From positions 1-64,000 of the forward strand of contig QKFD01000130.1 of the NCBI GenBank assembly GCA_003251535.1: 64,000 bases of DNA, read 5' to 3'. This document shows positions 2,130-46,478 of the stretch, one piece after another; position 1 is the first letter of the stretch; each line of letters opens with the position of its first letter. The DNA is from Chromatiales bacterium. Lineage in GTDB: Bacteria; Pseudomonadota; Gammaproteobacteria; Thiohalomonadales; Thiohalomonadaceae. The translations under genes and the position numbers were made by a program. A model generated the notes under the pieces. That model was not told the DNA's origin, searched no databases, and worked only from the letters and a program-made list of their open reading frames with translations.

Positions 2130-5100
2130 CTAGTGGGAGAGGAATGACGCCGCCTCTTCCGCGCTGATGCTGCCATCGGCGAGTCGAGCCAGGATCGCGT
2201 CGAGGTCGTCCGCGGCGGCAGGCTGCGCCGCGGCCGGCGTCACGCCGAGGGCGGTGCGGAGAAACTCGACCTGTTCGCGCACGGTGGTGTAGGTAAAGAG
2301 ATCGACCACATCCAGGCGGCCGGGGTAGAGCTGCTCATATTCGCGGTAGAGCTGGGTGGTGAGGATGGAGTTACCGCCGAGATCACCGAAGGCGTCATCG
2401 GCCGCCAGCTCGGTCACCCCCAAGATGCGGCCCCATAGCGTCGCCACCTGGCGGGCGATCTCATCCTCCGGCTCCAGCCCCTGCAACAGCACCGTAGCTT
2501 CACTGCCCACCGCCCCGGCGGGACGCTCGCCACTGCGCCGCAGACGGCTGCGCAGTGCCTCCGGCAGCTCGATGCCGAGGGCGGTCAGTGACTCGGCGCT
2601 GGCCCGCGGGTTGAGTTCGCTGGCCACCACCACCGGCGGCAGTTCGCTGTCGTCCGCCAATAGCTGCTCCATCAGCGGCAGCGCCGTGGCGGTGGCGATG
2701 GGGGTGAAGATCTCCTGCTCATCCACCGCGCCGTACTCCACCGCGATCCCCACCTCGCGCCAGGCCGGCCAGCAGACCGCCAGCGCCGGCAGACCGAGCT
2801 GCCGACGGTGGTGGGCGAGGGCATCGAGGTAGGCGTTGCCGGCGGTGTAGTCGCTCTGCCCCGGGGCGCGCAGCACCGTCGCCACCGAGGAGTACATGAT
2901 GAAGAAGTCGAGCGGGTCGCCGCGGGTCAGCCGGTGGAGCGCCAGCGCCCCCGCCATCTTCGGCGCCACCACCTGGTCAAAGGTGGCCGCCGACTTGCTG
3001 TGCAGGAACCCCGCGCCGGCACGGCCGGCGGCGTGGATGACGCCGTTGATGCGGCCGAAGCGGGTGCGCAGGGTGTCGATCACCCGCTCCAGCTGGAGCG
3101 GATCGCCGACATCAACGGCGACGCACTCCAGCTGTGCCCCCGCCTCACTGATGGCCAGCAGGCGGCTGAGACGACGGCGGAGCCGCTCCGGGGTGGCGGG
3201 GTCGAGGGCGAGATCCTCCCACTCGTCCCGCGGCGGCAGCGGCGTGCTGGCGATGAGCGCCAACTTGACCGGGCCACGCGCCGCCAGCAGCGCCGCCAAC
3301 TCCAGACCGAGGGCACCACTGCCGCCGGTGATGAGGTAGATCCCCTCCGGGTGAGGAGTGAAAGAGCGCGGGGTGGGGGCCGGCAGCCCCTCCAGCCGCT
3401 CGCGGTAGCGCTGGCCAGCGCGCCAGACGGCGAGGTCACCACTCGCAGCGGCGGCCAGTTCGGCTAGCAGCTGCGGCGCGGCCGGCAGTTGATCCGCATC
3501 GACACAGCGCCACGGCAGCTGCGGATTCTCCAAGCGGACGATGCGGGCCAGCGCCGCCAAGGCGGCGATGTGGGGGCGGACCCCGGCGGCGCCGTGGTTC
3601 TCCACCACAAAGCCACCACGGGTCAACAGCAGCGCGGCGTCGGCCCGCAGCCGCTGCTGGCCACAGCCCTGCACCAGTTCAGTGAGATCGTGCAGCAGGG
3701 CGCTGGGGTGATCGATCAGCCCCGGCGCCGGCTCGCTGGCGGACCAGCCCAGGGCGTAGATGATGCCGCCCAACCGGCGGCCGGCCAGCGCCGCCAGCGC
3801 CGTGTCGTAGCCCTCTGCCGGCCGCACCAGCTCCAACAGCTCCACCCCCGCTGCGCGCCACTGGGCAGCCAGTTCGGCCAGCTCGGCATCCGCCTCCCGT
3901 ACCAGCAGCAGCGGGCCGGCCAAGGGGCCGGCCGGCGGCAGCGGATCGGCCGCTGGCACCAACCGCAGGGCGTGCCAGAGCGAACCGACCGGCTCGCGCC
4001 CCAGGGCGCCGGCCGCCACCCGCTTGACGGTGTAGTCGCTGGCGCGGGCGCAGAGGCTGCCGTCGGCGCTGAGCAGTTCGATGTCGAGATGGAACGCCTC
4101 CGCCGAGTGGCCCGGCTTACGCCGCAGATAGGCGTAGAACTCCGCCGGCAGCGGGCGGAAGATCTCCAGCCGCTTGTAGGAGAAGGGGAGATATAGCTCC
4201 CCCTCCCCCGCCAGGTGGTTGGCGGCGTTGACCGCGGTGTCGAGCAGCGCCGGGTGGCAGTGGTAACGCGCCTCCTCGCCACGGTAGGGCTCGGCCAGGG
4301 CGAGCTGTACCAGCAGGGTGTCGCGGGCGGCGTTGGTCCACGCCTGCTGCACCGAGAGGTTCCAGCGATCGCCGATCACCAGACCGCGCTGCTCATCCTC
4401 GCTATGGCTGTACCCCATCCCCTCCGGCAGCGCTGCGCGCAGCTCGGCCACGGCGCGCGCGGTGGCGGGCTCGGTGGTAAACCGCAGCTGCGCCTCGGCG
4501 TGGATCTCCCACTCGCCACTCGGCGCCTGGCTCACCACCTGGAGCTGTCGCCGCCCCCCCTCGCCCTCGCTCACCTGGAGCTGGACGTTGCGCCGCTCCT
4601 CGGTGGCGAGGGCGAGCGGTTGCAGGAAGAGCAGCTGCTCGATGGTGAGCGGCGGCAGCGCGCCGCCGTGGAGCTGGGCGGCCACCTCCAGCACCATCTC
4701 GATGAAGCCGGTGCCCGGAAGGATGTAACTCCCCTGCACCTGATGCTCCGCCAGCTCCCAGTGGCTCTGGACGCCGAGATCGGCCTCATAGATGCGCAGC
4801 CCGCGGCTCGCCACCGCGCAGCGATCCAGTAACGGATGGCGGAACTGTTTGGCGCTGGCGCGTTGCGCCAAGCGCTCGCCGGCGCCGGTGGTGGAGACCC
4901 AACAACGGATACGGGCGAAGGGGTAGCTGGGCAGCGGGATGCGGTGGCAGGCGAGGGACCCATACCAGCGCTCCCACTCAAAGTCGGCGCCGCGCACATA
5001 GAGCGCCGCCGCCTCATCCAGCAGGGGGCCGCGCTCCGCCACCGCGCCGCTGCGCAGCGCCCGCTCGGTGAGGTCGCGGGCGGCGCGGTCGAGCTGCTTC

Positions 5101-6875
5101 TTGGCGCCGTCGCCCAGTAGTCCCGCCTCCCCCTCTTGGGCGCGCCGCTCATCCACCCGGCGGAAGCTGCCGCTCACCACCGCCGCCGGCAGCTGGGCCA
5201 TGCCCTGCCCCTGGAGGGCGGCCAGCAGCTCGCGCAGCTCCTCCAAACCGTGGAAGCGGATCGCCAGCCGGTGGTGGTGGTGTAGCCGCCCCACCGCGGC
5301 GGTGAAGCAGAGGTCCTCGGCGCGGCCGGTGAACTGTTTCAGGTGGCGCTGCCAACTGGCGATGAGCCGCTCCAGCGAGTGATCGGACATGGCCGAGAGC
5401 AGCAGCAGATGGGGACCGCCGAAGTCGGCACCCCGCGCCGCCGGTGCCGGCGGCTCCTCCAGGATGACGTGGCAGTTGGTACCACTCAGGCCGAAGGAGT
5501 TGATGCCGGCGCGACGCGGCGCACCGGCCGCTACCGACCACGGCCGCAGCACGTCGTTGACGTAGACCGGCCCGCTCTCGAAGGCGATCTTGCGGTTGGG
5601 ACGGGCGAAGTGGAGGCTGGCCGGGATCTGGCGGTGTTGCATCGCCAACACCATCTTCGCCACCCCGGCGAGACCGGCGGCGTTGTCGAGGTGACCGACG
5701 TTGCTCTTCACACTGCCGATGGCGCAGTACTGGCGCCGCTGGGAGTAGCGGCCATAGGCGCGGCCGATGGCGCTCACCTCGATGGGGTCGCCCAACTTGG
5801 TGGCGGTGCCGTGGGCCTCAAAGCAGGAGATGGTCTGCGGATCGATCTCCGCCTCCTCCAGGGCGTGGAGGATGAGCGCCTCCTGGGCCGCCATGTTGGG
5901 GGCGGTGATCCCCACCGACAGCCCATCCTGGTTGATGGCGCTACCGGCCACCACGGCGTGGATGGTGTCGCCGTCGGCCAGCGCCCGCTCCAGCGGTTTC
6001 AAGACAAAGGCGAGCACCCCTTCGGCCCCGGAGGTCCCTTCACTGCTGTCGTCGAAGGTGCGGGTGCGGCCGTCGTGGGCCATGGTGGCCTGGATATCTT
6101 TGATACCGATCCCCAGCTCCGGGTCGTCGGCCACCGGCACCAGATCCACCTTCACCGCACCGGCCACCGCCATCTCACACTCCCCCGCCAGCAGGCTGCG
6201 GCAGGCGAGGTGGAGCGCCACCAGCCCCGAGGAGCAGGCGGTATCCACCATCAGGCTGGGGCCGCGCAGATCGAGGTGGTAGGCGAGGCGACTGGCGATG
6301 ATCGACTTGACGTTGCCCACCACCGACACCTCCGGTGCGTCGGGGGCGTGGGTGCGCACGATGTCGCGGTAGTCGGCGCCGAAGTCGGCGCTGAAGCCGA
6401 CAAACACCCCGGTGGCGGATCCCTTGACCCCCTCGCCACCGTAACCGGCGTGCTCCAGCGCCGCCCAGGCGGTCTCCAAAAAGAGCCGCTGGTTGGGGTC
6501 CATCAGGTTGGCCTCCTGCTTGGCGAGGCCAAAGAATCGGTGGTCGAACTTATCCACCTCGCTGAGGAACGACTCGCGGAACAGGTGCAGCGGCCGGCTG
6601 CCGGAGTGGACCCCCTTCAGGCGCAGGTAGTCGCTGAGATCCGCCTCCCGCGCCGGCGGCAGCCGGCGCCGGGTGGTGCGACCATCCCGCAGCAGCTCCC
6701 AGAAGGCGGCGAGATCCTCACAGCCGGCGATGCGACCGGCGAGGCCGATGATCGCCACCCGCGGCCGTCCCGCGGCCGCCGCCAGCGGCTCCACGGCGAT
6801 GGTCTCCTCCCCCGCCAGGGAGAGGAGGTTGTCCAGCCCAAGGCTGGAGAGATCAGCATCCGCCAGGGTGCTCAT
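2130..6875 (-). CDS. AT-less type I polyketide synthase module KS-DH-KR-ACP
   Basis: A 1581-residue single-module PKS. The KS (about 35-460) has Cys in VDTACSSG (about residue 213) and His in EAHGTATKLGDP and KSNVGHLD. No AT follows. The DH (about 680-960) has HQVQGSYILP, matching HxxxGxxxxP, but the second motif reads DTAVN where Gln or His normally follows the Asp. The KR (about 970-1400 with its structural half) has TGGSGALG and the Ser and Tyr of YSSVA and DYTAGNAY; the LDD motif of B-type KRs is not evident. The ACP (about 1465-1535) carries its phosphopantetheine Ser in GGNS. The ATG at 6875 has GGAGAA seven bases upstream. The missing AT is probably supplied by the adjacent stand-alone acyltransferase. 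The expected product step is extension, ketoreduction and possibly dehydration. Confidence 0.94.
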   Translation of the reverse strand: MSTLADADLSSLGLDNLLSLAGEETIAVEPLAAAAGRPRVAIIGLAGRIAGCEDLAAFWELLRDGRTTRRRLPPAREADLSDYLRLKGVHSGSRPLHLFRESFLSEVDKFDHRFFGLAKQEANLMDPNQRLFLETAWAALEHAGYGGEGVKGSATGVFVGFSADFGADYRDIVRTHAPDAPEVSVVGNVKSIIASRLAYHLDLRGPSLMVDTACSSGLVALHLACRSLLAGECEMAVAGAVKVDLVPVADDPELGIGIKDIQATMAHDGRTRTFDDSSEGTSGAEGVLAFVLKPLERALADGDTIHAVVAGSAINQDGLSVGITAPNMAAQEALILHALEEAEIDPQTISCFEAHGTATKLGDPIEVSAIGRAYGRYSQRRQYCAIGSVKSNVGHLDNAAGLAGVAKMVLAMQHRQIPASLHFARPNRKIAFESGPVYVNDVLRPWSVAAGAPRRAGINSFGLSGTNCHVILEEPPAPAARGADFGGPHLLLLSAMSDHSLERLIASWQRHLKQFTGRAEDLCFTAAVGRLHHHHRLAIRFHGLEELRELLAALQGQGMAQLPAAVVSGSFRRVDERRAQEGEAGLLGDGAKKQLDRAARDLTERALRSGAVAERGPLLDEAAALYVRGADFEWERWYGSLACHRIPLPSYPFARIRCWVSTTGAGERLAQRASAKQFRHPLLDRCAVASRGLRIYEADLGVQSHWELAEHQVQGSYILPGTGFIEMVLEVAAQLHGGALPPLTIEQLLFLQPLALATEERRNVQLQVSEGEGGRRQLQVVSQAPSGEWEIHAEAQLRFTTEPATARAVAELRAALPEGMGYSHSEDEQRGLVIGDRWNLSVQQAWTNAARDTLLVQLALAEPYRGEEARYHCHPALLDTAVNAANHLAGEGELYLPFSYKRLEIFRPLPAEFYAYLRRKPGHSAEAFHLDIELLSADGSLCARASDYTVKRVAAGALGREPVGSLWHALRLVPAADPLPPAGPLAGPLLLVREADAELAELAAQWRAAGVELLELVRPAEGYDTALAALAGRRLGGIIYALGWSASEPAPGLIDHPSALLHDLTELVQGCGQQRLRADAALLLTRGGFVVENHGAAGVRPHIAALAALARIVRLENPQLPWRCVDADQLPAAPQLLAELAAAASGDLAVWRAGQRYRERLEGLPAPTPRSFTPHPEGIYLITGGSGALGLELAALLAARGPVKLALIASTPLPPRDEWEDLALDPATPERLRRRLSRLLAISEAGAQLECVAVDVGDPLQLERVIDTLRTRFGRINGVIHAAGRAGAGFLHSKSAATFDQVVAPKMAGALALHRLTRGDPLDFFIMYSSVATVLRAPGQSDYTAGNAYLDALAHHRRQLGLPALAVCWPAWREVGIAVEYGAVDEQEIFTPIATATALPLMEQLLADDSELPPVVVASELNPRASAESLTALGIELPEALRSRLRRSGERPAGAVGSEATVLLQGLEPEDEIARQVATLWGRILGVTELAADDAFGDLGGNSILTTQLYREYEQLYPGRLDVVDLFTYTTVREQVEFLRTALGVTPAAAQPAAADDLDAILARLADGSISAEEAASFLSH

Positions 6876-6904: not shown

Positions 6905-8170
6905 TTAGGCCGCGGCCCGCCGCGGTGTCCAGTCGGCCAGCTCACCGACACCCGTGGTCTCCAGGATCTGGGCGAAACGCCACTCCTGCTCCTCCTCTGG
7001 CGTCCCCTTGGTGGTGAAGATCTGGGCCAGCAGATCGAGGGCCGAGCGCATCTCCGGCTCGGTGGCCTCGCGCCCCTCCCGCTCCAGCCCCTCTTGCAGC
7101 GCCTGGAGCTGGCGGTAGGGGAGCACCACCCCCTGCTGGTAGGCGGCGTCATCCCAGTTCTGGTTGCGGGTGCAGACCGCCACCGCCATACACTTGGCGA
7201 TGAGCGACGGCCGCTCCTGCATGGCGCGCAGGTCGGCGGCAAACTCCTGCTCGATGAGCGGCTGATCCTCCTCCTCATCGAGGGCGTAGGCCTTGGCCCC
7301 CGGCAGGTTGTTGAGCACCAACCGCTTCAGCACACTGCGCGGCCCCGCCTCTAAGAAGAGATCGACCCCTTCGGCGTGCAGCCACTGCATGGTGTCCACC
7401 CACTGCACCGAGGCGGTGAGCTGGCGCACCAGGGCGGCGGCGATCTCCTCCGGCTCGCCGTGGGGACGGGCATCGACATTGGCGATCACCGGGATGCGCG
7501 GCCGCTGGATGGTGATGGCGCGCAGCTGCGCCGCCAACGCCTCTGCCGCCGGCGCCATGAAGGGGCTGTGGAACGGGCCGCTCACCTTGAGTGGGATGAT
7601 GTTGCCGCCCGCCTGTTTGAGCGCCTCACCGGCCCGCTCCAGCGCCGCCAGGCTGCCGGAGAGGACCGCCTGGGTGGGGGCGTTGCGATTGGCGATCACC
7701 AGCTCACTGCCGAAGCCGGGCAGCGCCTGGCAGATCGCCTCCACCTGCTCCAGCTCCAGCTTGGTGACGGCGTGCATCCCCGCCCCGCCCGCCTCACCGC
7801 AGCGGCTCATCGCCAGGCCACGCTGACGCGCCAGGCGCAGGCCATCCTCCAGACCGATCGCCTCCGCCGCCACCAGGGCGGTCAACTCGCCCAGGCTGTG
7901 GCCCGCCAGGAAGGCGGGGTTGAGACCACTGCGGGCGCGGAAGTGGCGATACTCCGCCAGGCCGCAGAGCAGGAGTGCCGGCTGGGTGTTCTCGGTGAGG
8001 TTGAGGGCGTCGCCATGGCCGGCAAAACAGAGCTGCTGCATATCCATATCGAGCACCTGCGAGGCGCTATCGAACAGCTCGCGGACCTGCGCGTCGCGCT
8101 CGAACAGCTGGCGGCCCATGCCGACATATTGAGATCCCTGCCCAGAAAACAGCACCGCAATGCGCTTCAT
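6905..8170 (-). CDS. Stand-alone (trans-acting) acyltransferase for the PKS
   Basis: A 421-residue discrete acyltransferase of the FabD/trans-AT type, expected to load malonyl or another extender onto carrier proteins of AT-less PKS modules. It begins MKRIAVLFSGQGSQ, has the nucleophile motif GHSLGE and, further on, SGPFHSPFM, the pattern seen in trans-ATs (animal and cis-ATs differ here). After the AT fold (about residue 290) comes an extra C-terminal region of about 120 residues (CMAVAVCTRNQNWD, then a helical part), which many PKS-associated trans-ATs also have. It lies between the megasynthase (122 bp downstream of it) and the AT-less PKS genes, so serving those two is the simplest reading. 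Its substrate is not evident; hydroxymalonyl-ACP from the neighbouring Fkb-like genes is an alternative to malonyl-CoA. Confidence 0.93.
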   Translation of the reverse strand: MKRIAVLFSGQGSQYVGMGRQLFERDAQVRELFDSASQVLDMDMQQLCFAGHGDALNLTENTQPALLLCGLAEYRHFRARSGLNPAFLAGHSLGELTALVAAEAIGLEDGLRLARQRGLAMSRCGEAGGAGMHAVTKLELEQVEAICQALPGFGSELVIANRNAPTQAVLSGSLAALERAGEALKQAGGNIIPLKVSGPFHSPFMAPAAEALAAQLRAITIQRPRIPVIANVDARPHGEPEEIAAALVRQLTASVQWVDTMQWLHAEGVDLFLEAGPRSVLKRLVLNNLPGAKAYALDEEEDQPLIEQEFAADLRAMQERPSLIAKCMAVAVCTRNQNWDDAAYQQGVVLPYRQLQALQEGLEREGREATEPEMRSALDLLAQIFTTKGTPEEEQEWRFAQILETTGVGELADWTPRRAAA

Positions 8171-8292: not shown

Positions 8293-18654
<10,362 letters not shown>

Positions 18655-18655
18655 C

Positions 18656-19828
18656 TCACCCGCGAGCAGCGCGGGCGACCTCCCTTTTTGGTGGCAACAC
18701 GCGATAGCGACGCACGCCGTAGTCAGAGATCAGCATCTGCTGGATCTGCGTCGAACCTTCAATAATCTCCAGCACCTTCGCCTCTCGATAGAGGCGGGCC
18801 ACCGGATACTCCTCCGAGATGCCGTTGGCGCCCAGCAGCTGCACCGCATCGGAGGTGATCTGGACGCCGAGGCGCGAGGTGACGTACTTGGCCACATTGA
18901 CCTCGTTGACCGCCTCGTCGGCGGCGGCGTCGATCGCCCGCCCCACCTTCTCGCACAGCGCCCGTCCCACCTGGACGCCGGCCACGGCGTCGGTGAGCAT
19001 CGCCTGCACCAGCTGATGCTGGCGCAGCTTCTTGCCAAACTGCTCCCGCTTGCGGGCGTAACCCACCATCTCCTCCAGCGCCGCCTCGGCGAGGGAGACG
19101 CCGGCCCAGGCGATGCTGTAGCGGCCGTAGAAGAGGGCGGTGTTGGCGACGAAGCTAAAGCCTGCCCCCAGCCGTCCCACCAGGGCCGACTGCGGTACCA
19201 GCACCTGGTCGAGATCGATCTCCGCCAGGTGGGCACCACGGCTCGCCATCAGCCCGTGCAGCGGCCGGGTGGTGAGCCCGGGGGTGCCCCGCTCCACCAA
19301 GAAGGCGCTCATCTGGCCGTCACAGCTGGCCATTACCAAGAAGAGATCGGCGATGGCGCCGTAGGTGATCCAGCGCTTGCGACCATTCAGCAGAAAACCG
19401 CCAGCGACGGCCTGATAGTGGGTGCGCACCGAGGAGGCATCGGAGCCGATCTCCGGCTCGGTGAGGGCGAAGCAGGCGAGCTTCTCGCCCCGTGCCAGCA
19501 GCGGCAGATAGTGGCGCTTCTGCTCGGCGTCGCCGAGCCGCGCCAGGGTCTCCCCCACCAGGCTGGTGTGGACCGTAAGGATGGCGCGGGTGGAGGGGCA
19601 GCCCTTGCCGATGGCCACCGTCAGCTCGCCATAGTCGAGGGCATCGAGGCCGCTGCCGCCATACTCTGGCGGCAGCCGGGCACCGAGGAAACCCAGCTCC
19701 GCCATCTGCGCCAACACCTCGCGCGGTACCGCCGCCTCACTGTCGAAGCGCCCGGCCTGCGGTCGCAGCACCTCATCGGCAAAGGTGCGCGCCTGCGCCA
19801 CCATCGGATGCACGGCTTGGGCAACCAT
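18656..19828 (-). CDS. Acyl-CoA dehydrogenase family protein, FkbI-like (extender-unit biosynthesis)
   Basis: A 390-residue flavin acyl-CoA dehydrogenase. The family fold is clear from motifs such as CFALTEPEIGSDA, the RKRWITYG strand, and the C-terminal QLLGANGISEEYPVARLYRE segment with GSTQIQ. In FK520, ansamitocin and zwittermicin clusters, the homologue oxidises a carrier-bound glyceryl-derived unit during synthesis of hydroxymalonyl- or methoxymalonyl-ACP. That role is inferred here from the surrounding genes: the small ACP ends 2 bp upstream and the FkbH-like and FkbK-like genes precede it. The spacing of 1 bp to the megasynthase implies translational coupling. A general fatty-acid oxidation role is less likely in this context. 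Confidence 0.9.
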   Translation of the reverse strand: MVAQAVHPMVAQARTFADEVLRPQAGRFDSEAAVPREVLAQMAELGFLGARLPPEYGGSGLDALDYGELTVAIGKGCPSTRAILTVHTSLVGETLARLGDAEQKRHYLPLLARGEKLACFALTEPEIGSDASSVRTHYQAVAGGFLLNGRKRWITYGAIADLFLVMASCDGQMSAFLVERGTPGLTTRPLHGLMASRGAHLAEIDLDQVLVPQSALVGRLGAGFSFVANTALFYGRYSIAWAGVSLAEAALEEMVGYARKREQFGKKLRQHQLVQAMLTDAVAGVQVGRALCEKVGRAIDAAADEAVNEVNVAKYVTSRLGVQITSDAVQLLGANGISEEYPVARLYREAKVLEIIEGSTQIQQMLISDYGVRRYRVLPPKREVARAARG

Positions 19829-19830
19829 GA

Positions 19831-20094
19831 TCAGGCAGCGCTCCGATATTTCTGGATGAGGGCCGACATGGCATCGATGGAGCTGAAGTTGGGCAGCACG
19901 ATATCCTCATCGGCCACCGTGATGCCGCTGATGGACTCGATGAAGTTGAGCAGCCGCATGGCAAACAGCGACGAGACGTAGCCGAGGCGGAAGATGTTGT
20001 CGTCGTCCTTCAGCGCCACCTCATCGTCAACATTCATGTTAGCCTCGACGAACTCGCGGATCTGCTGACACAGTGCGTTGAACTGGTTATCCAT
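19831..20094 (-). CDS. Discrete acyl carrier protein, FkbJ-like
   Basis: An 87-residue acidic carrier protein starting MDNQFNALCQQ. The probable phosphopantetheine site is the second Ser of LGYVSSLFAMRLL; in FkbJ/ZmaD-type ACPs this reads L-G-(F/Y)-V-(N/D)-S-L-F-A, so the residue before the Ser differs slightly. The family carries the three-carbon unit while it is converted from glyceryl- to hydroxymalonyl-ACP. It sits between the FkbH-like gene (start of this gene 23 bp after its stop) and the dehydrogenase (2 bp). Confidence 0.9.
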   Translation of the reverse strand: MDNQFNALCQQIREFVEANMNVDDEVALKDDDNIFRLGYVSSLFAMRLLNFIESISGITVADEDIVLPNFSSIDAMSALIQKYRSAA

Positions 20095-20117
20095 GACTTA
20101 TATATCCCCTGACTGAT

Positions 20118-21203
20118 TCAGTGCTCGACCCGGATCTCGATATAGGAGGGGTCATCCTGGATGAAGCTGAGGTCGTGCTCGAACACGATGTCGCCCTGCT
20201 CGCTCTTACTCACCTCGCGGAAGCCGGAGAACTGGTAAGTGACCAGCATCTGGCGGTTACGCTCGGTGCGGCGGAAGTCGGCCCGCAGCCGTTTGCCGGC
20301 CGCCGCGGCGCGGCGCATCAGGTGGGAGAGCAGCACGCTACCGACCCCACGGGAGGCGGTGCGACAGGACATCAGCAGCAGTTTGATGTGGTCGTGCCCC
20401 GGCTCGTGGGCCACCAGTGTCAGGCCGATCTTGCCGTAGGAGCCGTAGCGATCGGTCAGCTCGCAGATGAGCAGGCTGTGGTCCGGCGAGTGCATGAAGC
20501 TGCGCAGCTCCTCCATACCGTAGGTGATGCCGGTGGAGTTGAGCTGATTGGTGCGCACCGTCAGCTCCTCCGCCCGCAGCAGATCCGCCTCCTGCGCCGC
20601 GGCGATGTGGAACTGCATATTGAGGGTGGCGAGGAACGCCTCCGGCATCCCCTCATGGCTGCTCTCGGCCTGGCGCCGCTCCATATCTTCCAGATACATC
20701 TGGCGCCGCCGACCGGCATCCTCGGTGATCACCACCGAGCGGATGCGCGGATGCTCCAACAGCTGGCCATACTCCTGCGCATCGAGGCAGCTGACACTGG
20801 GGTGGGCCGCCGCCACCTCGTCGCGCTCGAACGGCTGGTCATCGATGAACAGCAGGGTGTCCATGCCGATGTTGAGTTCGCGCTGGATGTTGGCGATCCC
20901 GGCCGACTTCGCCCCCCAGTTGATCTGCGGGTAGAGGAAGTATTCGGCGAGGCCAAACTGCTCCAGCTGACGCCAGGCGTCTTCATGGGTGTTGCGGCTA
21001 CAGATGGAGTGGAGGATGCCGCGGGCGTCCAGCGCCTTGATCAGCTCCACCACCCCCGGCTTCAACGCCACCGCGTCACCCTCGGCGAGGATGCCGTCCC
21101 ACAGGGTGTGGTCGAGGTCCCACACCACACATTTGATCGCCTTGGGCTTGGCCGGTTTGGCCGGCGTGGCGCCATCCAGCGGCATGTCAGCGGCCGTATT
21201 CAT
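20118..21203 (-). CDS. FkbH-like HAD-family glyceryl transferase/phosphatase
   Basis: A 361-residue protein with an N-terminal HAD domain (about 24-190; nucleophile Asp in VWDLDHTLWDG, later FIDDQPFERDE) and a C-terminal acetyltransferase-like half (about 200-350; GKIGL, MSCRTASRGVG). This two-part architecture is that of FkbH proteins, which take 1,3-bisphosphoglycerate, dephosphorylate it and place a glyceryl group on a discrete ACP. The start overlaps the stop of the FkbK-like gene by 17 bp, so the cassette is translationally coupled. This is the most diagnostic gene for the hydroxymalonyl pathway. Confidence 0.93.
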   Translation of the reverse strand: MNTAADMPLDGATPAKPAKPKAIKCVVWDLDHTLWDGILAEGDAVALKPGVVELIKALDARGILHSICSRNTHEDAWRQLEQFGLAEYFLYPQINWGAKSAGIANIQRELNIGMDTLLFIDDQPFERDEVAAAHPSVSCLDAQEYGQLLEHPRIRSVVITEDAGRRRQMYLEDMERRQAESSHEGMPEAFLATLNMQFHIAAAQEADLLRAEELTVRTNQLNSTGITYGMEELRSFMHSPDHSLLICELTDRYGSYGKIGLTLVAHEPGHDHIKLLLMSCRTASRGVGSVLLSHLMRRAAAAGKRLRADFRRTERNRQMLVTYQFSGFREVSKSEQGDIVFEHDLSFIQDDPSYIEIRVEH

Positions 21204-22038
21204 AAAACCCTCTCCCTACCTTTTTCCCGATCACCCCGGCATAGACCATCTTGCGCAGCAGCGGACAGCAGCGGAACTTGGGGTCCTGGTACTGCTGATA
21301 GAGCACATCGAGGGAGTGCATCACGGTGTCGAGGCCGATGAGATCGGCGGTCTCCAGTGGCCCCATCTTGTGGCCGTAGCCCTCGCGGAATACCGCGTCG
21401 ATCTCCGGCGCTGCCGCCACCCCGTCCTGCACCAGAAAGGCCGCCTCATTCATGAAGAGGTGCGAGAGGCGGTTGGCGACAAAACCGGGGAAGTCCTGCA
21501 CCACGATGGCGCTCTTGCCGATGGAGGCGAGCAGCTCGCGGGTCGCCGTCAGCGTCTCGGCGCTGGTGTGGTAGCCCTGCACCACCTCCACCGCCCGCTT
21601 GAGCGGCACCGGGTTCATGAAGTGGGTCCCCACCACCCGATCCGGCTGGGCCATCAGCGCGGCGATGCGGGTGATGGGGATGCAGCTGGTGTTGACGCCG
21701 TAGTAGGCCTCCGGCCGGCACTGCTCCCGCAGGGCGCGATAGAGCGACTCCTTGATCCCCCAATCCTCGGTGACCGACTCCAGTAGCCAGTCACACCCCG
21801 CCAATGCGCTCAATTCGCTGCTCGGCGTGACCCGTGCCAGCAGCTCCTGGGCGTTGAAGCTGGGGAGCGCTGCCCCCATCAGCCGATAGCCGCGCAATGA
21901 CCCAGGCAGCTCGCTGACAAACCGATCCAGCGCCTTGCCATCGATGTCATAGAGCACCACCTGGTGGCCCGCCGCCGCGCACTGCAACGCGACATCCGCC
22001 CCCATAACACCCGCCCCTACTACGCCTATAGTCGCCAT
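21187..22038 (-). CDS. 3-hydroxyacyl-CoA dehydrogenase-like protein, FkbK-like
   Basis: A 283-residue NAD-dependent dehydrogenase. It opens with a Rossmann motif (GVVGAGVMGADVA), has the family segment GTHFMNPVPL (about residue 140) and the C-terminal helical domain with GPLETADLIGLD. Family members oxidise beta-hydroxyacyl-CoA. In FK520-type clusters FkbK oxidises glyceryl-ACP in hydroxymalonyl-ACP synthesis, and the adjacency to FkbH-, FkbJ- and FkbI-like genes supports that role here. It begins 36 bp after the stop of the LolA-like gene with no obvious terminator between, so it may share the exporter's transcript. Confidence 0.9.
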   Translation of the reverse strand: MATIGVVGAGVMGADVALQCAAAGHQVVLYDIDGKALDRFVSELPGSLRGYRLMGAALPSFNAQELLARVTPSSELSALAGCDWLLESVTEDWGIKESLYRALREQCRPEAYYGVNTSCIPITRIAALMAQPDRVVGTHFMNPVPLKRAVEVVQGYHTSAETLTATRELLASIGKSAIVVQDFPGFVANRLSHLFMNEAAFLVQDGVAAAPEIDAVFREGYGHKMGPLETADLIGLDTVMHSLDVLYQQYQDPKFRCCPLLRKMVYAGVIGKKVGRGFYEYGR

Positions 22039-22074: not shown

Positions 22075-22845
22075 CTAGGGCACCGTCTCCAGATAGCCGA
22101 GGGTGAAGATGAAGTCCCTCACCTCCTGCGGCTCCATGGGGCGCACGTTGGAGATCTCCATCAAGGTGGAGCGCCCCTTGTTGACGTTGCTGGCGATGGT
22201 CACCTTGCCGGGGATGAGGTAGTCACCGACGGCAAACATCTCGTCGTAGGTGACGGTCTTGATCAATTTGCCGGAGATGGAGTAGCACTCGTTCTGCACC
22301 ATCCGCCGCTCCTTGATGGAGATCCAGCTGATGATCTTGTCGTAGCCCTCGGAGCTATCCTTGCCGCGCAGCTCCACCTTCATCATCGGCTCGCCGTTGA
22401 GGGTGGTCTCCTCAAACCCCTCTACGGTGTAGTCCTTCAGCAGATTGAGCTGCATCAGGTCGTAGTTGTTGGCATCGGTCCCCATGAAGGAGTCGCGGGC
22501 CGAGAGGCGGATGGAGCGACGCACATCGCTGAAGTACATCCAGAGGTTGGCGGCCGCCTTGAGTAGATATTTGTGCTTGGAGGTGGCCGGCCAGTTCATC
22601 ACCAGCAGGCTGTTGTCCTCCTTTAGCGTCATCTCAAAGCCAAAGGTCTTGATCACCTCGCCGTTCTTGAGGTGGGTCAGCTTGTAGTCGGAGACCGCCA
22701 CGTTGGGGAAGATGGTCTGCTCGATGTGGGCGATCATCGACTGCACATCCCCCTCCTCCAGCTTGGCGTAGCTCGGCAGGGAGAAGGTGAGCGAAATAGC
22801 GCAGAGCGCGACACCGGCGGCGGCGCGCAGGGAGGACAACTTCAT
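22075..22845 (-). CDS. Periplasmic outer-membrane lipoprotein-sorting (LolA-like) protein
   Basis: A 256-residue secreted protein. The ATG at 22845 (MKLSSLRAAAG) was chosen over an upstream in-frame start because GAGGAG lies just upstream and a signal peptide follows at once (cleavage probably after SYA, about residue 28). The body resembles the LolA-like lipoprotein-sorting family (COG2834) that accompanies FtsX-type ABC transporters: a beta-rich lipid-binding fold with WPATSKHKYLLK and ISWISIKERRMVQNE. It should receive a lipid or lipidated molecule from the ABC transporter and carry it across the periplasm. Its cargo is unknown. Position directly between the transporter and the biosynthetic genes raises the possibility that the cargo is the cluster's lipopeptide. 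Confidence 0.85.
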   Translation of the reverse strand: MKLSSLRAAAGVALCAISLTFSLPSYAKLEEGDVQSMIAHIEQTIFPNVAVSDYKLTHLKNGEVIKTFGFEMTLKEDNSLLVMNWPATSKHKYLLKAAANLWMYFSDVRRSIRLSARDSFMGTDANNYDLMQLNLLKDYTVEGFEETTLNGEPMMKVELRGKDSSEGYDKIISWISIKERRMVQNECYSISGKLIKTVTYDEMFAVGDYLIPGKVTIASNVNKGRSTLMEISNVRPMEPQEVRDFIFTLGYLETVP

Positions 22846-22859
22846 GGCTTTGACTCCTC

Positions 22860-23537
22860 TTAGTGCGTAACCAGCTGACCGTCGCGCATCCGCACGACGT
22901 GATCGCACTGCTCGATGATTTCCGGGTCGTGGGTGGAGAAGACCATGGCGGTCTTCTCCTCTCGATTGATGCGCCGCAGCAGCTCCAGGATCTTGATCGC
23001 CGTCTCGGAGTCGAGGTTAGCGGTGGGCTCATCTGCCAACAGCAGCTTCGGCTTGTTGACCAGGGCACGGGCGATGGCCACCCGCTGGCGCTGGCCGCCC
23101 GATAGCTCGTCGGGGCGGTGGTGGAGGCGATCGCTCAACCCCACCGCGTCGATCAGGTGCATGATCCAGTGGCGCAGTTCGGTCGGGTTGTGGCGCTTAC
23201 GACCGAGGCGGGCCGGCAGCTCGATGTTCTCGTAGACATTGAGCACCGGCAGCAGATTGAAGGATTGGAACACATAGCCGATCTGCTCATTGCGCAGGTT
23301 GGCGCGATCACTGGCGCTCAACCGGTTGGCATCCACCCCGTCGAAGCGCACCTCCCCCTCCTGCGGCGTGTCGAGGCAGCCCAGCATGTTGAGCAGGCTG
23401 GTCTTGCCACTGCCAGAGGGGCCGGCCAGGGTGAGAAAGTCCTGCTCTTTGACCGTCAGGCTGACGCCGCGCAGCGCCTGCACCTTGGTCTTGCCCAGGG
23501 TGTACTCCTTGTGGAGATTGCTGAGTACGATTTCCAT
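22860..23537 (-). CDS. ABC transporter ATP-binding protein, LolD/MacB type
   Basis: A 225-residue ATPase with Walker A GPSGSGKTS (about residue 40), Q-loop in GYVFQSFNLLP, signature LSGGQRQRVAIARAL, Walker B LLLADEPTANLDS and the H-loop FSTHDPEI. Sequence and size fit the LolD/MacB/FtsE class that works with FtsX-fold permeases, both of which are encoded just upstream. Its stop overlaps the ribosome-binding region of the LolA-like gene, so the two are coupled. Confidence 0.95.
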   Translation of the reverse strand: MEIVLSNLHKEYTLGKTKVQALRGVSLTVKEQDFLTLAGPSGSGKTSLLNMLGCLDTPQEGEVRFDGVDANRLSASDRANLRNEQIGYVFQSFNLLPVLNVYENIELPARLGRKRHNPTELRHWIMHLIDAVGLSDRLHHRPDELSGGQRQRVAIARALVNKPKLLLADEPTANLDSETAIKILELLRRINREEKTAMVFSTHDPEIIEQCDHVVRMRDGQLVTH

Positions 23538-23569
23538 GATGAGTCGATTCCGCAGTGCTGGAGGTGGAT

Positions 23570-24883
23570 TTAGGTCTCTGCCAAGGCGTCGGCGATGGGT
23601 AGCCGAGAGGCGCGGCGGGCAAAGAAGTAGCTGGCCAGCAGGGCCACTAACAGCGGCACCAGCAGGCCGGCGATGTAGCCGCCGAGGTCGAACGCCGGGT
23701 AGAAGTGGGAAGAGCCGAGGAAGCCGCTCAGCTCCTGATTGGTGATGGGGATCCCGGCCCGCGCCGTCACCAAGAACAGCAGGCTGGCGAGGGCGATACC
23801 CACCGCCGAGGCGATGATCGCCAGCACCACGCTCTCCCCCACCAGGATGGTCTGGATCCGCAGCGGCGAGGCGCCCAGCGCCGCTAGGGTCGCCACCTCG
23901 CGGGTGCGCTCAAAGATGGTGAGCATGGTGGTAAAGGCGAGGGCCGCGGCCACCATCAGGGTGATGATGGTGGTGATGAGGGTGTAGCTCAGCTGGAGGG
24001 CGCCGGTCAGCTCGGTGAACATCTCCGCCCCCTGCTGCCAATAGGAGGTGTCCAGCGCCCCATCCTCCGGCAGGTGCTGCGCCGCCACCACCTCGGCGAC
24101 CTTATCGCGCACCTGGGTGAGCGGTGCCGCCGGGTCTACCGAGAGATTGAGGCGGGTGGCGCCGGTGGCGTCATTGACCAGTACCCGGGCCACCGGTAGA
24201 TCGATATAGACGTAGTTCTCCAGCCACGCCGGCAGGCTCACCGCTTGAAACAGACCGGTGACCTCGTAGTCGATGAGGTTGATCTTCTTATCCAGCGACT
24301 TGGCCAGCAGCCGGATGGTATCCCCCACCTGAATGAGGTTGCGGCGGGCGAAGTCCACCGGGACGATCACCTCGTAGGCGCCGGCATTGAACATGCGCCC
24401 CTCCACCAAGCGAAAGTTGGCGGCCAGCTGGCGGTCATTAGTGAGATCGAAGGCCATCGCCTTGAAGGGCACGCTGTCGATCTCGGTGGCCACCTTGGTA
24501 TCAAACTCCAACCGTGGATGGACAGCGATCACCCCGGGGACCCCCTCCAGCGCCTCGGCAAAGGCGGGGGGGTAGCGGAAGTAGCGATACTCTCGATCAA
24601 AGATATTGCGGTCGATCTCGCGGGTCACTTGGGAGGCGACATAGATATCGCCCGTCGCCAAGGCGACAATATTGGTGGAGAAGTTGTGATGGACCCCCGC
24701 CAGAAACTGAGAGAAGTAGACCATCACAAAGCTGGCAAAGGTGATCAGCGCGCCCAAAAGTAGATTACGCGAGCGCTGGCGCAGCACATTGCGCACAATC
24801 AACTTCCAGACACTGCTGACACAGGGGCGCCCGGCGCGCTCTTCCGCCAGTTGCGGAGCGCCTTCTATCACTTCGGTATTCAT
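23570..24883 (-). CDS. FtsX-fold ABC transporter permease (LolC/E-like), second of pair
   Basis: A 437-residue inner-membrane permease. It has one N-terminal transmembrane helix (about 40-62, NLLLGALITFASFVMVYF), a large periplasmic domain (about 65-290) and three C-terminal helices. This is the MacB/LolC/LolE layout, in which substrate is extracted from the outer leaflet and handed to a periplasmic partner. The C-terminal cytoplasmic coupling segment FERTREVATLAALGASPLRI is the family hallmark. It starts 7 bp after the stop of the first permease and is followed by the ATPase after 32 bp. Confidence 0.92.
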   Translation of the reverse strand: MNTEVIEGAPQLAEERAGRPCVSSVWKLIVRNVLRQRSRNLLLGALITFASFVMVYFSQFLAGVHHNFSTNIVALATGDIYVASQVTREIDRNIFDREYRYFRYPPAFAEALEGVPGVIAVHPRLEFDTKVATEIDSVPFKAMAFDLTNDRQLAANFRLVEGRMFNAGAYEVIVPVDFARRNLIQVGDTIRLLAKSLDKKINLIDYEVTGLFQAVSLPAWLENYVYIDLPVARVLVNDATGATRLNLSVDPAAPLTQVRDKVAEVVAAQHLPEDGALDTSYWQQGAEMFTELTGALQLSYTLITTIITLMVAAALAFTTMLTIFERTREVATLAALGASPLRIQTILVGESVVLAIIASAVGIALASLLFLVTARAGIPITNQELSGFLGSSHFYPAFDLGGYIAGLLVPLLVALLASYFFARRASRLPIADALAET

Positions 24884-24890
24884 GATGGAT

Positions 24891-26147
24891 TTACTCTTTG
24901 GCGTTGAGCAGGGTCACTGCGTTCTGGCTACCGGCCTGCCAACAGGTGGTGATGGTGGTGAGCAGCGCGGTGACGATGATGGCGGCGAGGCCGAGCAGGA
25001 TGTTCTCGGCGTCCAGCACCGGCATCATGATCTTGCCGCCGTTCATGTACTGCTCCACCAGCGTGCTCGCCCGCATCCCGCCTGAGGCCTGGATCCCGAG
25101 CAGGAGTAGTAGGGCGATGAGGAAACCGGCGCCGTAACCGATGAGCACCTTGATGATCACCTCGTAGACAAACATGGAGACCAGCCCCATGCGGGTCATT
25201 CCGAGGGAGATGAGGGTGCCGATCTCGCGCCGCCGCTCGTGCAGTCCCATCTTGGTGAGGATGAGCACAATCACCAGCATGACAAAGATGACCGCACCTA
25301 TCTGGATGGCCGCCATGCCGGTGGCGATGTTGCCGACACTCCCCACGGCGCGGGCGATCTGACGATAGGAGTAGACCGCCAAGTGATCGCGCTCCGCCGG
25401 CGTCAAGGCCGCCTCGATCCGGGCGATGACGCCATCGAGGTCATCGACATAGGCCGGTTTCACCCGTACTGCGATATCGGTGGCGACGTCATCGACGTAG
25501 AGCATGTTGCGGGTGCGGTCGAGGTTGACGAAGATGACCGAACTCAAGAACTCATCTATTAAGACCGGCGAGCTGGCGTAGCCAGTGACATCGTAGGGGC
25601 GGCCGTTGAAGACCTCGCTGGGGGTCTCGGTCAGCACCAACAGCTCATCCCCGAGCGGCACACCGCTCTTCTCCACCAGATGCTCCGAGACTAAGGAGGC
25701 CTGTGTCCCAGAGTTGAGTAGCGGCAGCACCTCGGCCATATCGGGGATCACCTTGGCATCCTCGGCCTGGTCCACGGCAATAATCACCGCCGGCGTGGAG
25801 CTCTCGCCATTCCCCACCAGGGCGCCAAAACGCAGCCGCGGTGAGGCCGCCTCGACCTCTGGCAGGGCGCGGATCTTTGCCAACACCGGCGCCAACTCAT
25901 CGGCCTCGATCAGCTCCAAGCGGCGCCCCGTGGAGACATCAAAGAAGTCGATGGGGGAGGCCTGGGGTTTAATCTGGATATGGCCGGTGAGGCTATCGGT
26001 CATCCCCCGCTCCAGCGCCTGTTTGACGCCGCTGATCTGACCCGAGGCGTAGACCAACAGCAGACTGGCGACACCAATAATAAAAGTACCGAGCAGAAAA
26101 CGGCCGCGGTGGCGAAATACATTTCTGAAAGCGAGCAGCAGCTGCAT
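24891..26147 (-). CDS. FtsX-fold ABC transporter permease (LolC/E-like), first gene of the exporter operon
   Basis: A permease of 418 residues if started at the ATG at 26147 (MQLLLAFRNVFRH), which places the first transmembrane helix where relatives have it and has GGATGAG about ten bases upstream; an ATG 15 bp further up is the alternative. N-terminal helix, large periplasmic domain, then three helices with the coupling segment LHERRREIGTLISLGMTR. It is paired with a second, different permease, so the complex is probably a heterodimer as in LolCE. It is the first gene of the minus-strand run of genes that continues without a change of strand to position 1. Confidence 0.9.
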   Translation of the reverse strand: MQLLLAFRNVFRHRGRFLLGTFIIGVASLLLVYASGQISGVKQALERGMTDSLTGHIQIKPQASPIDFFDVSTGRRLELIEADELAPVLAKIRALPEVEAASPRLRFGALVGNGESSTPAVIIAVDQAEDAKVIPDMAEVLPLLNSGTQASLVSEHLVEKSGVPLGDELLVLTETPSEVFNGRPYDVTGYASSPVLIDEFLSSVIFVNLDRTRNMLYVDDVATDIAVRVKPAYVDDLDGVIARIEAALTPAERDHLAVYSYRQIARAVGSVGNIATGMAAIQIGAVIFVMLVIVLILTKMGLHERRREIGTLISLGMTRMGLVSMFVYEVIIKVLIGYGAGFLIALLLLLGIQASGGMRASTLVEQYMNGGKIMMPVLDAENILLGLAAIIVTALLTTITTCWQAGSQNAVTLLNAKE

Positions 26148-26588
26148 GGGGAATACGCTCATCCATAATGGGGGAACTGCAAAGCGCGGCAATGATACAG
26201 ATTGACTTGTGACGGCTTTATGTACAAAACAGGTCAGAACAATTGAACACCCCGCCACTCCCGCTCTCGGTTTGGCCGCTAAAAATAGTTCCAGATCAGT
26301 AAAAAAGCGCTCTCCCCCTGACAGAATCAGGGTCGGCATAGAAATGGGGTAGCGGGCGACACTTTTTTTATACAGTGGTCACGAAAACACTATGGCAAAA
26401 GTAAAACCCGGCCGGCCTCGCCCCCAGAAAGGAGACGCCTCCCCTCCCCCACACCCCGAGGTGCCTCGGTACGGCGGCCGCGGCGGGGCCCGTCGTGGCG
26501 GAGCCGACCAAGCGCTGATCCGGGTTACACTCACCGCTTTGGGTCGGGCTCTCCGGCTCTACCACCCACGACTCAAGGAGATTTGGCC
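26148..26588. other. Intergenic region between divergent exporter operon and traB-like copy 1
   Basis: A 441 bp spacer that must hold the promoter for the minus-strand exporter/biosynthetic run. It contains an AT-rich part (about 26200-26390) and a GC-rich part. A small hairpin (CCCTGA...TCAGGG) lies near 26317-26333. A 73-codon plus-strand reading frame from 26392 overlaps the next gene and has low-complexity Pro/Arg/Gly content; I do not regard it as a gene. No clear -35/-10 pair could be assigned. Confidence 0.5.
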
Positions 26589-27455
26589 ATGGCGCGGGCA
26601 CAGCGACTGGTGATCCTGTTTATCTTCGTCCTCTTCTGGGGCAGCGCCGGGGCGGCCGATCGCCACCTGTTGTGGCAGGTGCAGAGCGATCGGGCGACGG
26701 TCTACCTGCTCGGCTCCATCCACCTCGGCAAGGCCGATCTCTATCCACTACCGAAGGTGATGGAGGAGGCATTTGCCGCCAGCACCACCTTAGTGTTGGA
26801 GCTTGACCCCCAGCGCGCCTCCACGGCAGGGCTGGAGCTGGTGGAGCAGGCGAGCTACCCGGCGGGCCGCACCATTGCCGACGCCATCCAGCCCGCCACC
26901 TTCCAGCGGCTCAAGGATTACCTGAAGCAGGAGGGGATCCCCCTGGCGATGGTGGAGCGGATGCGGGCCGGTCTACTCGGCTACACCCTGCTGGTGGGGG
27001 AGTTGGTACAGGCGGGCTACTCCCCCCTATTCGGCATCGATCTCCACTTTGCCGGTCAGGCCGGAGAGCGGCCTATCGTTGAGTTGGAGAGCCTTGAGGA
27101 GCAGATGGCACTGCTGATCGAAGTGCCGGACGAAGATGCCCACATCCGCGCCACCCTGGATGACCTGGATAAGCTGGATGGGACCATGGCCCGGCTCGAC
27201 AAGGCGTGGCGCGAAGGAGACGCCGCCGCCCTAGAGCAGGTCGCCATCACCGAGCCCATGAACGAACACCCCTCCCAGCGCCCCTACCTCGATAAGATTC
27301 TGTTTCAGCGCAACCGGCGTATGGCGGAGAAGATCCGCGGCTTCCTCAGGCAGCAGGGGAGCTGGTTTGTGGTGGTGGGAGCCGGCCACTTAGTGGGGGA
27401 ACAGGGGATCGTGGAGCTGCTACGCAAGGGGGGATATCGGGTGGAGCAGCTATAG
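26561..27455 (+). repeat. Tandem duplication unit, copy 1 (traB-like gene plus ribosome-binding site)
   Basis: This segment and 27751-28645 are near-identical copies of the same length (895 bp), starting about 28 bp before the start codon with the shared ACTCAAGGAGATTT leader and ending at the stop codon. The first 150 bp of the coding part are almost base-for-base the same, while later parts differ at scattered positions. The spacer between them is not repeated. Confidence 0.9.
26589..27455 (+). CDS. TraB/GumN family protein, copy 1
   Basis: A 288-residue secreted or membrane-anchored protein of the TraB/GumN family (PF01963). An N-terminal signal segment (MARAQRLVILFIFVLFW) ends near residue 22. 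The two conserved GxxH motifs are visible: GSIHLGKADLYPLP near residue 41 and GAGHLVGEQGIVELL near the C terminus. The family has a fold related to EreA/ChaN-like and Tiki metalloproteases, and enzymatic activity is suspected but unknown in most bacterial members. The ATG at 26589 follows AAGGAG by nine bases. It is followed by a near-identical second copy; the close similarity points to a recent duplication. Confidence 0.92.
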   Translation: MARAQRLVILFIFVLFWGSAGAADRHLLWQVQSDRATVYLLGSIHLGKADLYPLPKVMEEAFAASTTLVLELDPQRASTAGLELVEQASYPAGRTIADAIQPATFQRLKDYLKQEGIPLAMVERMRAGLLGYTLLVGELVQAGYSPLFGIDLHFAGQAGERPIVELESLEEQMALLIEVPDEDAHIRATLDDLDKLDGTMARLDKAWREGDAAALEQVAITEPMNEHPSQRPYLDKILFQRNRRMAEKIRGFLRQQGSWFVVVGAGHLVGEQGIVELLRKGGYRVEQL

Positions 27456-27778
27456 AGCGAGTGCGGTGGGCCAAACACCCGCTACCCTGCCTTGGGAGTA
27501 ACCATCCCCCGACAAAGCGGGTATTCACCATCTTCGGCGACCAACCAGCGCAGCGGCTACAGCAACTGCGCCGATGTCTTGATGTCATCGGTCAAGCAGC
27601 GCCGAGCTTGCGTCAAGATCACTGGTTCATGAGGATAGATGAACTCGCACGGAAGTTTAGTATTTAAGAATGGCGTGCAGACGCTGTTCAGACAGGAACG
27701 ACTTTTTCGTTCTTGTTTCCACGCTTGAATGTCCGATTTCTCACCACTACTCCACCCTCGACTCAAGGAGATTTAGCC
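27456..27778. other. Non-repeated spacer between the two traB-like copies
   Basis: A 323 bp stretch less GC-rich than the flanks. It holds a small hairpin, GAACGA-CTTTT-TCGTTC, near 27697-27713, which could act as a weak terminator. Short reading frames on both strands (68-69 codons) have no recognisable product. Its origin is not evident; unlike the genes on either side it is present only once in this window. Confidence 0.5.
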
Positions 27779-44149: not shown

Positions 44150-44288
44150 GCAGGCTCAACCTCGGCGGCTAAGGGGCGGAGTCCAACGCCAACGGCCCAC
44201 CCGGGGCGTGCGGTGGCGAGGGGTTGGGATTGTGGCGCGCAACCGCTCACAGCGGCGGCCTTCGCAGCGGCGCGGCCAGCGGTGCAGA

Positions 44289-46277
<1,989 letters not shown>

Positions 46278-46435
46278 CGCGCTCTCCTGTGGTTGGTGAC
46301 AGGGACCGGCGGAAACCAGCACCCCAGCGGGGGAGCCTACGCGAAGCCGCGCCGGCCGACCTGGATCCACCACCCACTTTCCGGCCACCGCCAGACCACG
46401 CGACGCGAGACACCCTCTGTTTCAAAGTAGCATCC

Positions 46436-46475
46436 GCGGCCGTGGCAGGGACCCGCTGGCCCCCGCCACGGCCGC
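46436..46475 (-). terminator. Hairpin after glgB
   Basis: An 11 bp perfect stem (GCGGCCGTGGC / GCCACGGCCGC) with an 18-base loop begins 3 bp beyond the glgB stop codon. There is no T run. It may partly separate glgB from glgE transcription. Confidence 0.5.
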
Positions 46476-46478
46476 CAC

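Follow-up and report, generated by a model that had tools for sequence, protein, structure and literature searches.

A predicted hydroxymalonyl-ACP cassette joined to an aminotransferase-containing PKS/NRPS line in a Chromatiales bacterium, with relatives in two phyla

In FK520, the FkbG-K genes form a methoxymalonyl-ACP (acyl carrier protein) cassette. Zwittermicin ZmaN, ZmaD, ZmaG and ZmaE have the activities of FkbH, FkbJ, FkbK and FkbI, and a cis-acting acyltransferase (AT), ZmaA-AT, which lacks the basic CoA-binding motif, takes the extender. For butyrolactol A, labelling supports hydroxymalonyl-ACP, and homologues of the same four genes are described with no O-methyltransferase nearby (PMC5355916; here and below, statements on cited papers refer to the accessible parts of their text). 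Here we describe a related cassette in a 64,000-nucleotide stretch, the window, comprising bases 1-64000 of contig C98 (QKFD01000130.1) of a Chromatiales bacterium (assembly GCA_003251535.1). The window has homologues of FkbH, FkbI, FkbJ and FkbK in common with FK520, while FkbG is missing. The cassette leads into a hybrid polyketide synthase/nonribosomal peptide synthetase (PKS/NRPS) with an aminotransferase (AmT) between its PKS and NRPS modules. We propose, at a probability of roughly 0.75, that hydroxymalonyl-ACP is the extender of the first ketosynthase (KS)-AT module of this protein and leads to a 3-amino-2-hydroxyacyl-glycyl chain.

The original prediction placed four coupled genes at 18656-22038, and both this span and its gene calls were correct. 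All four lie tightly packed on the minus strand. The FkbK gene overlaps the FkbH gene by 17 bp, gaps of 23 bp and 2 bp separate the ACP from FkbH and FkbI, respectively, and the PKS/NRPS gene starts at 18654, 1 bp past FkbI. FkbH keeps 81 of 81 near-invariant columns of 90 FkbH sequences, including the HAD motif DxDxT and Cys280. C[ST][KR]N was dropped as a catalytic motif for FkbH because its Cys was present in just 4 of 94 rows. FkbK has the NAD-binding motif GAGVMG, and its HFMNP...E motif and the EIIEGST motif of FkbI are presumably catalytic. FkbI matches the solved FkbI structure 1r2j (E = 1.9e-52), with general acyl-CoA dehydrogenases scoring higher. The ACP is the weakest family match, at 21.2 bits against a PF00550 cut-off of 20.8, and its Ser41 and cassette context fit. 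Chance or mis-annotation as the source of the cassette is ruled out by the family scores and the FkbH tree described below. An FkbH homologue with the HAD motif, with both dehydrogenases and a free ACP adjoining it and no O-methyltransferase, is the make-up of a hydroxymalonyl-ACP cassette.

From these genes and domains we infer the following substrates and order of steps. FkbH would load the glyceryl group of a glycolytic intermediate onto the free ACP, and glyceryl-ACP would be oxidized in two steps, by FkbK and FkbI, to hydroxymalonyl-ACP. Without a methyltransferase, the hydroxyl of the extender would remain free. The cis-AT of the large protein would take this unit from the free ACP, and one extension of a fatty acid loaded by the fatty acyl-AMP ligase (FAAL) domain would give 2-hydroxy-3-oxoacyl-ACP. 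The AmT would convert the latter to a 3-amino-2-hydroxyacyl unit, which the C-A-PCP module would couple to an amino acid, probably glycine. AT-less modules served by a trans-AT would then add two unsaturated C2 units to this predicted 3-amino-2-hydroxyacyl-Gly core, followed by further amino acids and a final KS-AT-MT-C module on another contig, C93.

To our knowledge, the mycosubtilin line has neither an alpha-hydroxyl nor such a cassette. Its PKS MycA resembles the large protein in having an aminotransferase embedded at the PKS/NRPS interface, and yields a beta-amino fatty acid (PMC3870968). The published assembly-line routes that we found to 3-amino-2-hydroxy acids pair the AmT with a monooxygenase domain. 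In puwainaphycin PuwE, the 3-amino-2-hydroxy group is ascribed to this pair (PMC4219810), and tychonamide and floridanemamide are described as having this pair too (PMC13252402, preprint). All these lines share with the window a FAAL or other starter, KS-AT, AmT and then NRPS; the 3-amino-2-hydroxy acid is known there and predicted here. They differ in the flavin monooxygenase beside the AmT, which in the window is missing, with a hydroxymalonyl cassette instead. Pfam found no monooxygenase domain in the 3453-residue protein, whose AmT and C boundaries are ~15 residues apart and whose active-site motifs are in place. The nearest precedent that we found is microsclerodermin, for whose AmT- and monooxygenase-containing line hydroxymalonate extenders have been suggested in a review (PMC6163206). 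That line differs in having the monooxygenase domain, and its hydroxymalonate would enter during iterative PKS steps ahead of this domain. We found no open-access paper tying a hydroxymalonyl cassette and an AmT module to a 3-amino-2-hydroxy acid, which is weak evidence, as the search covered few subscription papers.

A scan of a genome collection gave 181 confirmed FkbH candidates, of which the best 80 were analysed. The order FkbK-ACP-FkbI-FkbH (K-J-I-H) occurs in 55 of these 80 loci, the order K-H-J-I, with the ACP between FkbH and FkbI as in the window, in 11, and incomplete or other orders in 14. The K-H-J-I order also sets the window apart from the zwittermicin genes. Butyrolactol A, whose gene set likewise lacks a methyltransferase, differs from the window in its K-J-I-H order, its contiguous polyol and, in the text accessible, the lack of beta-amination. 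In the K-J-I-H loci L012, L014, L021 and L111, and in many cyanobacterial loci, FkbK has a GYS[IL]G-type AT immediately on its 5' side.

Ten of the 11 K-H-J-I loci (L002-L010 and L028) run on into a starter domain and KS, as the window does, and L011 (Bacteroidales) has neither starter nor AmT. With the window, these ten form a family of eleven, five from Gammaproteobacteria and six from Actinobacteria. Alteromonas sp. a30, Pleionea CnH1-48, Streptomyces lomondensis and Spirillospora albida are among its cultivable members. The AmT is reached in seven of the ten other members; L002, L005 and L008 end before it. The starter domain varies, being a FAAL in seven of the eleven (window, L002-L006 and L010) and a loading AT in four (L007-L009 and L028), and the cassette, the AT signature described below, the AmT and a glycine-type A domain are constant. 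The code of the first A domain, DILQLGVVWK in the window and DILQ[LIV]GV[VI]WK in six other readable members, is of the type that we take to be a glycine code. Further downstream, the six genomes examined in that region share the order trans-AT, KS-DH-KR, KS-DH-KR, KS and C-A.

The eleven FkbH proteins form one clade (IQ-TREE, 94 rows, support 100/98), which splits into a gammaproteobacterial branch (100/93) and an actinobacterial branch (100/100). As expected for an extender pathway, the window FkbH falls among clusters with FkbI, FkbK and the ACP and stands well apart from the distant FkbH-like proteins found in relatives of the organism, in a tree built without the reference proteins FkbH, AsmH, ZmaN, BryA and OzmB and thus without named bryostatin-type starters. 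The cluster is sporadic, because among 39 genomes around the organism (its own included) only G008 also has an FkbH at ~50%, 1.4 Mb from its AmT. This genome, of a relative in the same taxonomic family (FkbH 51%, AmT 52%), was rejected as a carrier of the same cluster on account of that distance.

The RXR motif before YASH is a CoA-binding carrier-recognition site, and it is replaced in ATs for ACP-bound extenders, by MCM in the hydroxymalonyl-ACP-specific ZmaA-AT and by IAI in the aminomalonyl-ACP-specific ZmaF, which has GPFH (PMC4207774). The window cis-AT, which matches the ZmaA-AT structure 4qbu (8.7e-32), has likewise lost the basic residues and reads F-P-E. We compared 144 AT domains; 118 had a readable motif pair (26 were dropped), and removal of 3 duplicates left 10 family cis-ATs and 105 others, 16 of which came from an AT-AmT search outside the family. 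All 10 readable family cis-ATs have F-x-E, its acidic third residue being invariant. Of the 105 others, 0 have it; their third position is never acidic, and 86 carry a basic residue at the first or third position. Sequences from one family do not, however, count as independent observations. The family cis-ATs also group together (FastTree, SH-like support 99).

Two loci of another FkbH clade, L040 (Thiomargarita) and L047 (a proteobacterial metagenome-assembled genome), carry the cassette directly before KS-AT-AmT-C-A in a single open reading frame (ORF; L040:8464-18660 and L047:7630-18532). The AT reads HAIH there, and L040 has no FkbK match within the locus. This is, as judged by sequence, a second, independent pairing of the cassette with KS-AT-AmT. 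The use of the extender by the first KS-AT module, as originally proposed, would fit the position of the cassette, its co-conservation, the AT signature and this second pairing. The K-H-J-I order followed by starter and KS is kept in all ten other members despite the varying starter domain.

Several observations weigh against this assignment. ZmaA-AT reads GYSFG, MCM and GAAH, whereas the window AT has GHSIG, F-x-E and HPFH, lacking the GYSxG and GAAH of the ZmaA type, and its module ends in an AmT. GHSIG/HPFH is malonyl-CoA-like according to a table that lists ZmaK with GHSIG and HAFH (PMC4207774). The RXR rule is not clean, as many ATs beside other FkbH cassettes are GYS[IL]G with a basic residue, and we therefore count F-x-E as support, not proof. 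The basic residue is missing as well from the three trans-ATs that were read in Gammaproteobacteria (NII, SVI and SYI). Conservation extends to the cluster as a whole, and the pattern of presence and absence therefore cannot by itself point to module 1. Separately, ATs that precede an AmT in L133-L136 and L144/L156 have P-[SG]-Q and [HN]A[VL]H in place of RXR and HAFH; an FkbH at 53-55% identity is also present in four of the five genomes, and the fifth (G144) has only a distant one.

The trans-AT could instead hand hydroxymalonyl-ACP to an AT-less KS-DH-KR module, leaving module 1 to use malonyl-CoA and to make a plain 3-amino fatty acid. The window trans-AT resembles ZmaF in having no basic residue at the RXR position (NII, compared with IAI) and in its GPFH (PMC4207774), and discrete ATs for ACP-linked substrates exist, OzmC and ZmaF (PMC6164871). 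The malonyl-like motifs of the cis-AT would also suit this arrangement. However, K or R is retained in the four trans-ATs that were read in Actinobacteria (KVA, KVV, KVA and RVA), whose clusters also have the cassette, and across all members read the module-1 cis-AT is the only AT of the line that consistently lacks the basic residue. DH domains are present in the modules that the trans-AT would serve. In L040 and L047 the cassette is paired with KS-AT-AmT, and neither locus shows a match to a trans-AT. Delivery by the trans-AT thus appears unlikely. Across both phyla, a shared malonyl-CoA role is more likely for these enzymes, but not certain, on the basis of their motifs.

The window starts at base 1 of C98, and its left edge is therefore a contig end. 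Contig C93 (22,675 bp), which begins inside a DH domain and has the domain order DH-KR-ACP, KS-C-A, C-A, KS-AT-MT-ACP-C, appears by synteny to continue the assembly line of C98. Its colinearity extends to the Alteromonas cluster (42-47% identity) and to Pleionea. The ends of C98 and C93 have no exact overlap of 20-399 bp, and the join therefore rests on synteny. The terminal AT of C93 reads QCK and HAFH. The contig ends (18492-21285, L127/L128) with a 448-residue outer-membrane-like protein without a Pfam match and then two ORFs that, from their translations rather than Pfam, are thioesterase-like and phosphopantetheinyl-transferase-like. The 448-residue protein and the thioesterase-like ORF have Alteromonas homologues.

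FkbG had been reported absent from the window, and we likewise found no methyltransferase family among the ORFs scanned by Pfam there (every large ORF of the operon and its surroundings, and most but not all ORFs elsewhere). To the left, where an O-methyltransferase might have lain, C93 has no free one, and neither PF01596, to which we take FkbG to belong, nor PF05050 has a match on C98 or C93. The sole MT domain of C93, in the last module, was considered as a hidden FkbG and rejected. Its PDB matches are led by CurJ (1.5e-39), citrinin, DisA and LovB, which we take to be C-methyltransferases.

If an O-methyltransferase encoded elsewhere acts on the ACP-bound unit, the true extender would be methoxymalonyl-ACP. 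The 4.63-Mb genome is in 130 contigs and 95.6% complete, which leaves room for such an enzyme. It has two PF01596 matches, on C50 and C128 only, two PF05050 matches, both on C1, and, among the matches listed, 53 for PF13649. Also among the PF13649 matches listed are a 269-residue protein at the distal end of the Alteromonas cluster, past transporter genes, and one ~19 kb upstream of the Saccharothrix cassette; either, if part of its cluster, would weigh against an unmethylated extender. FkbG on C50 or C128 was rejected, as those contigs have no KS match. When ten family genomes and the genome of L017 were searched, PF01596 was found in 8 of the 11, but, as in the window's own genome, never on a family-cassette contig, several of these contigs being short. 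PF05050 had no match on a cassette contig in the ten genomes searched (that of the window and those of all other family members except G039). Positive controls came from second FkbH genes of these genomes, which do lie near methyltransferase genes, with a PF01596 gene 0.1 kb away in Micromonospora rosaria and a PF05050 domain ~2.4 kb away in Actinokineospora. Together with the C-methyltransferase-like MT domain of the cluster itself and the lack of the FkbG that marks an FkbG-K cluster, this makes methoxymalonyl-ACP a very improbable extender here. As a separate observation, a protein just 5' of FkbK on a Streptomyces durmitorensis plasmid is annotated as an FkbM family methyltransferase.

FkbH-family enzymes supply glyceryl or lactyl-type starters in other systems, and such a role, as in bryostatin-type systems, is rejected here as extremely unlikely because FkbK and FkbI are present with conserved motifs and separate FAAL or loading AT domains provide the starter; FkbH also sits in the clade of FkbI/FkbK-bearing clusters.

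As far as sequence can show, neither of the two findings that would have refuted the original prediction, an O-methyltransferase beyond the left edge or a starter-type grouping of FkbH, was made. The parts of this system are known; its novelty lies in the way they are combined, in the conservation of this combination across two phyla and in the absence of a monooxygenase. The same arrangement occurs in distantly related marine and soil bacteria, and it is therefore probably a second way to a chemical group of natural enzyme inhibitors. Inhibitors of aminopeptidases and of angiotensin-converting enzyme (microginins) bind metal through alpha-hydroxy-beta-amino acid heads, and bestatin and amastatin are inhibitors with such heads. 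A more speculative and rather doubtful extension of hydroxymalonyl use by module 1 is that this cross-phylum family has fixed one pharmacophore, 3-amino-2-hydroxyacyl-glycyl, through hydroxymalonyl extension and transamination rather than AmT and monooxygenase, while swapping starters. This could represent a polyketide route to bestatin/amastatin/microginin-like metallopeptidase warheads. If so, a branched-chain starter (e.g. isovaleryl) would give 3-amino-2-hydroxy-5-methylhexanoate, which is the amastatin residue. The hydroxyl would arrive with the extender, and with no oxygenase and varied starters the system would be a simpler engineering part. The K-H-J-I cassette, F-x-E AT and AmT could together serve as a mining marker. 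We found no named product for the family clusters in the open-access literature, and their occurrence in Gammaproteobacteria and Actinobacteria without an attachable product makes them a clear isolation target.

Table 1. Features of the cassette, the assembly line and the adjoining transport genes, with positions in the window.
Feature	Position	Strand	Evidence
LolA-like protein, LolD-like ATPase, two LolC/FtsX-type permeases	22075..26339	-	Pfam/NCBIfam
FkbK/ZmaG-type 3-hydroxyacyl dehydrogenase	21187..22038	-	PF02737 6e-48, PF00725 6e-31; GAGVMG and HFMNP...E motifs
FkbH/ZmaN-type glyceryl transferase/phosphatase	20118..21203	-	TIGR01686 267.9 bits (cut-off 146.65), 1.1e-79
Free-standing ACP, FkbJ/ZmaD type, Ser41	19831..20094	-	PF00550 21.2 bits
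FkbI/ZmaE-type acyl-ACP dehydrogenase	18656..19828	-	PF00441/PF02771/PF02770; acyl-CoA dehydrogenase 9e-39; EIIEGST motif
Hybrid PKS/NRPS, 3453 residues, FAAL-ACP-KS-AT-ACP-AmT-C-A-PCP and tail of ~200 residues	8293..18654	-	Pfam, NCBIfam, domain coordinates
FAAL domain (fatty-acid starter)	16969..18654	-	PRK09192 fatty acyl-AMP ligase 1e-110
KS, module 1	15151..16593	-	PF00109 6.9e-81; DSACSSS active site
cis-AT, module 1	14221..15042	-	PF00698 2.1e-50; GHSIG 14778-14761; F-P-E-(X5)-HPFH 14499-14464
ACP, module 1	13645..13887	-	PF00550; GIDSL
Class III aminotransferase (AmT), predicted beta-amination	12040..13287	-	PF00202 5.3e-55
Adenylation domain, code DILQLGVVWK (Gly-like)	9175..10647	-	PF00501; code read by motif
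Free-standing trans-AT, FabD type, N-I-I-(X5)-GPFH	6905..8170	-	TIGR00128 286.9 bits (cut-off 260.9)
AT-less PKS module KS-DH-KR-ACP	2130..6875	-	Pfam
KS and apparent DH start of next AT-less module, cut by contig end	3..2108	-	Pfam (KS)

The minus strand is occupied by a single operon-like run from 26339 down to the contig end (Table 1). Two LolC/FtsX-type permeases, a LolD-type ATPase and a LolA-like protein are followed by FkbK, FkbH, the ACP and FkbI, and then by the 3453-residue protein, the FabD-type trans-AT, the KS-DH-KR-ACP protein and the cut KS protein. The Lol-type genes at the head of the operon are probable export genes of the cluster; the same four lie upstream of the cluster in L002 and downstream of it in Alteromonas L113. 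The ~200 residues past the last PCP of the large protein (8296-8904) have no Pfam family match.

Other type I PKS KS domains are found in the same 4.6-Mb genome (G000) on contigs C58, C77, C115, C92, C122, C120, C44 and C8. Adjoining the cluster on the plus strand are two adjacent TraB/PrgY/GumN family genes (26583-28645). Further along the window, genes of alpha-glucan metabolism (40871-48443) include a GlgE-type maltosyltransferase and amylase/maltokinase-like and branching-enzyme-like genes. Two neighbouring nucleotidyltransferase-HEPN fusions (58331-59464 and 60149-61132) are reminiscent of MNT-HEPN toxin-antitoxin pairs.

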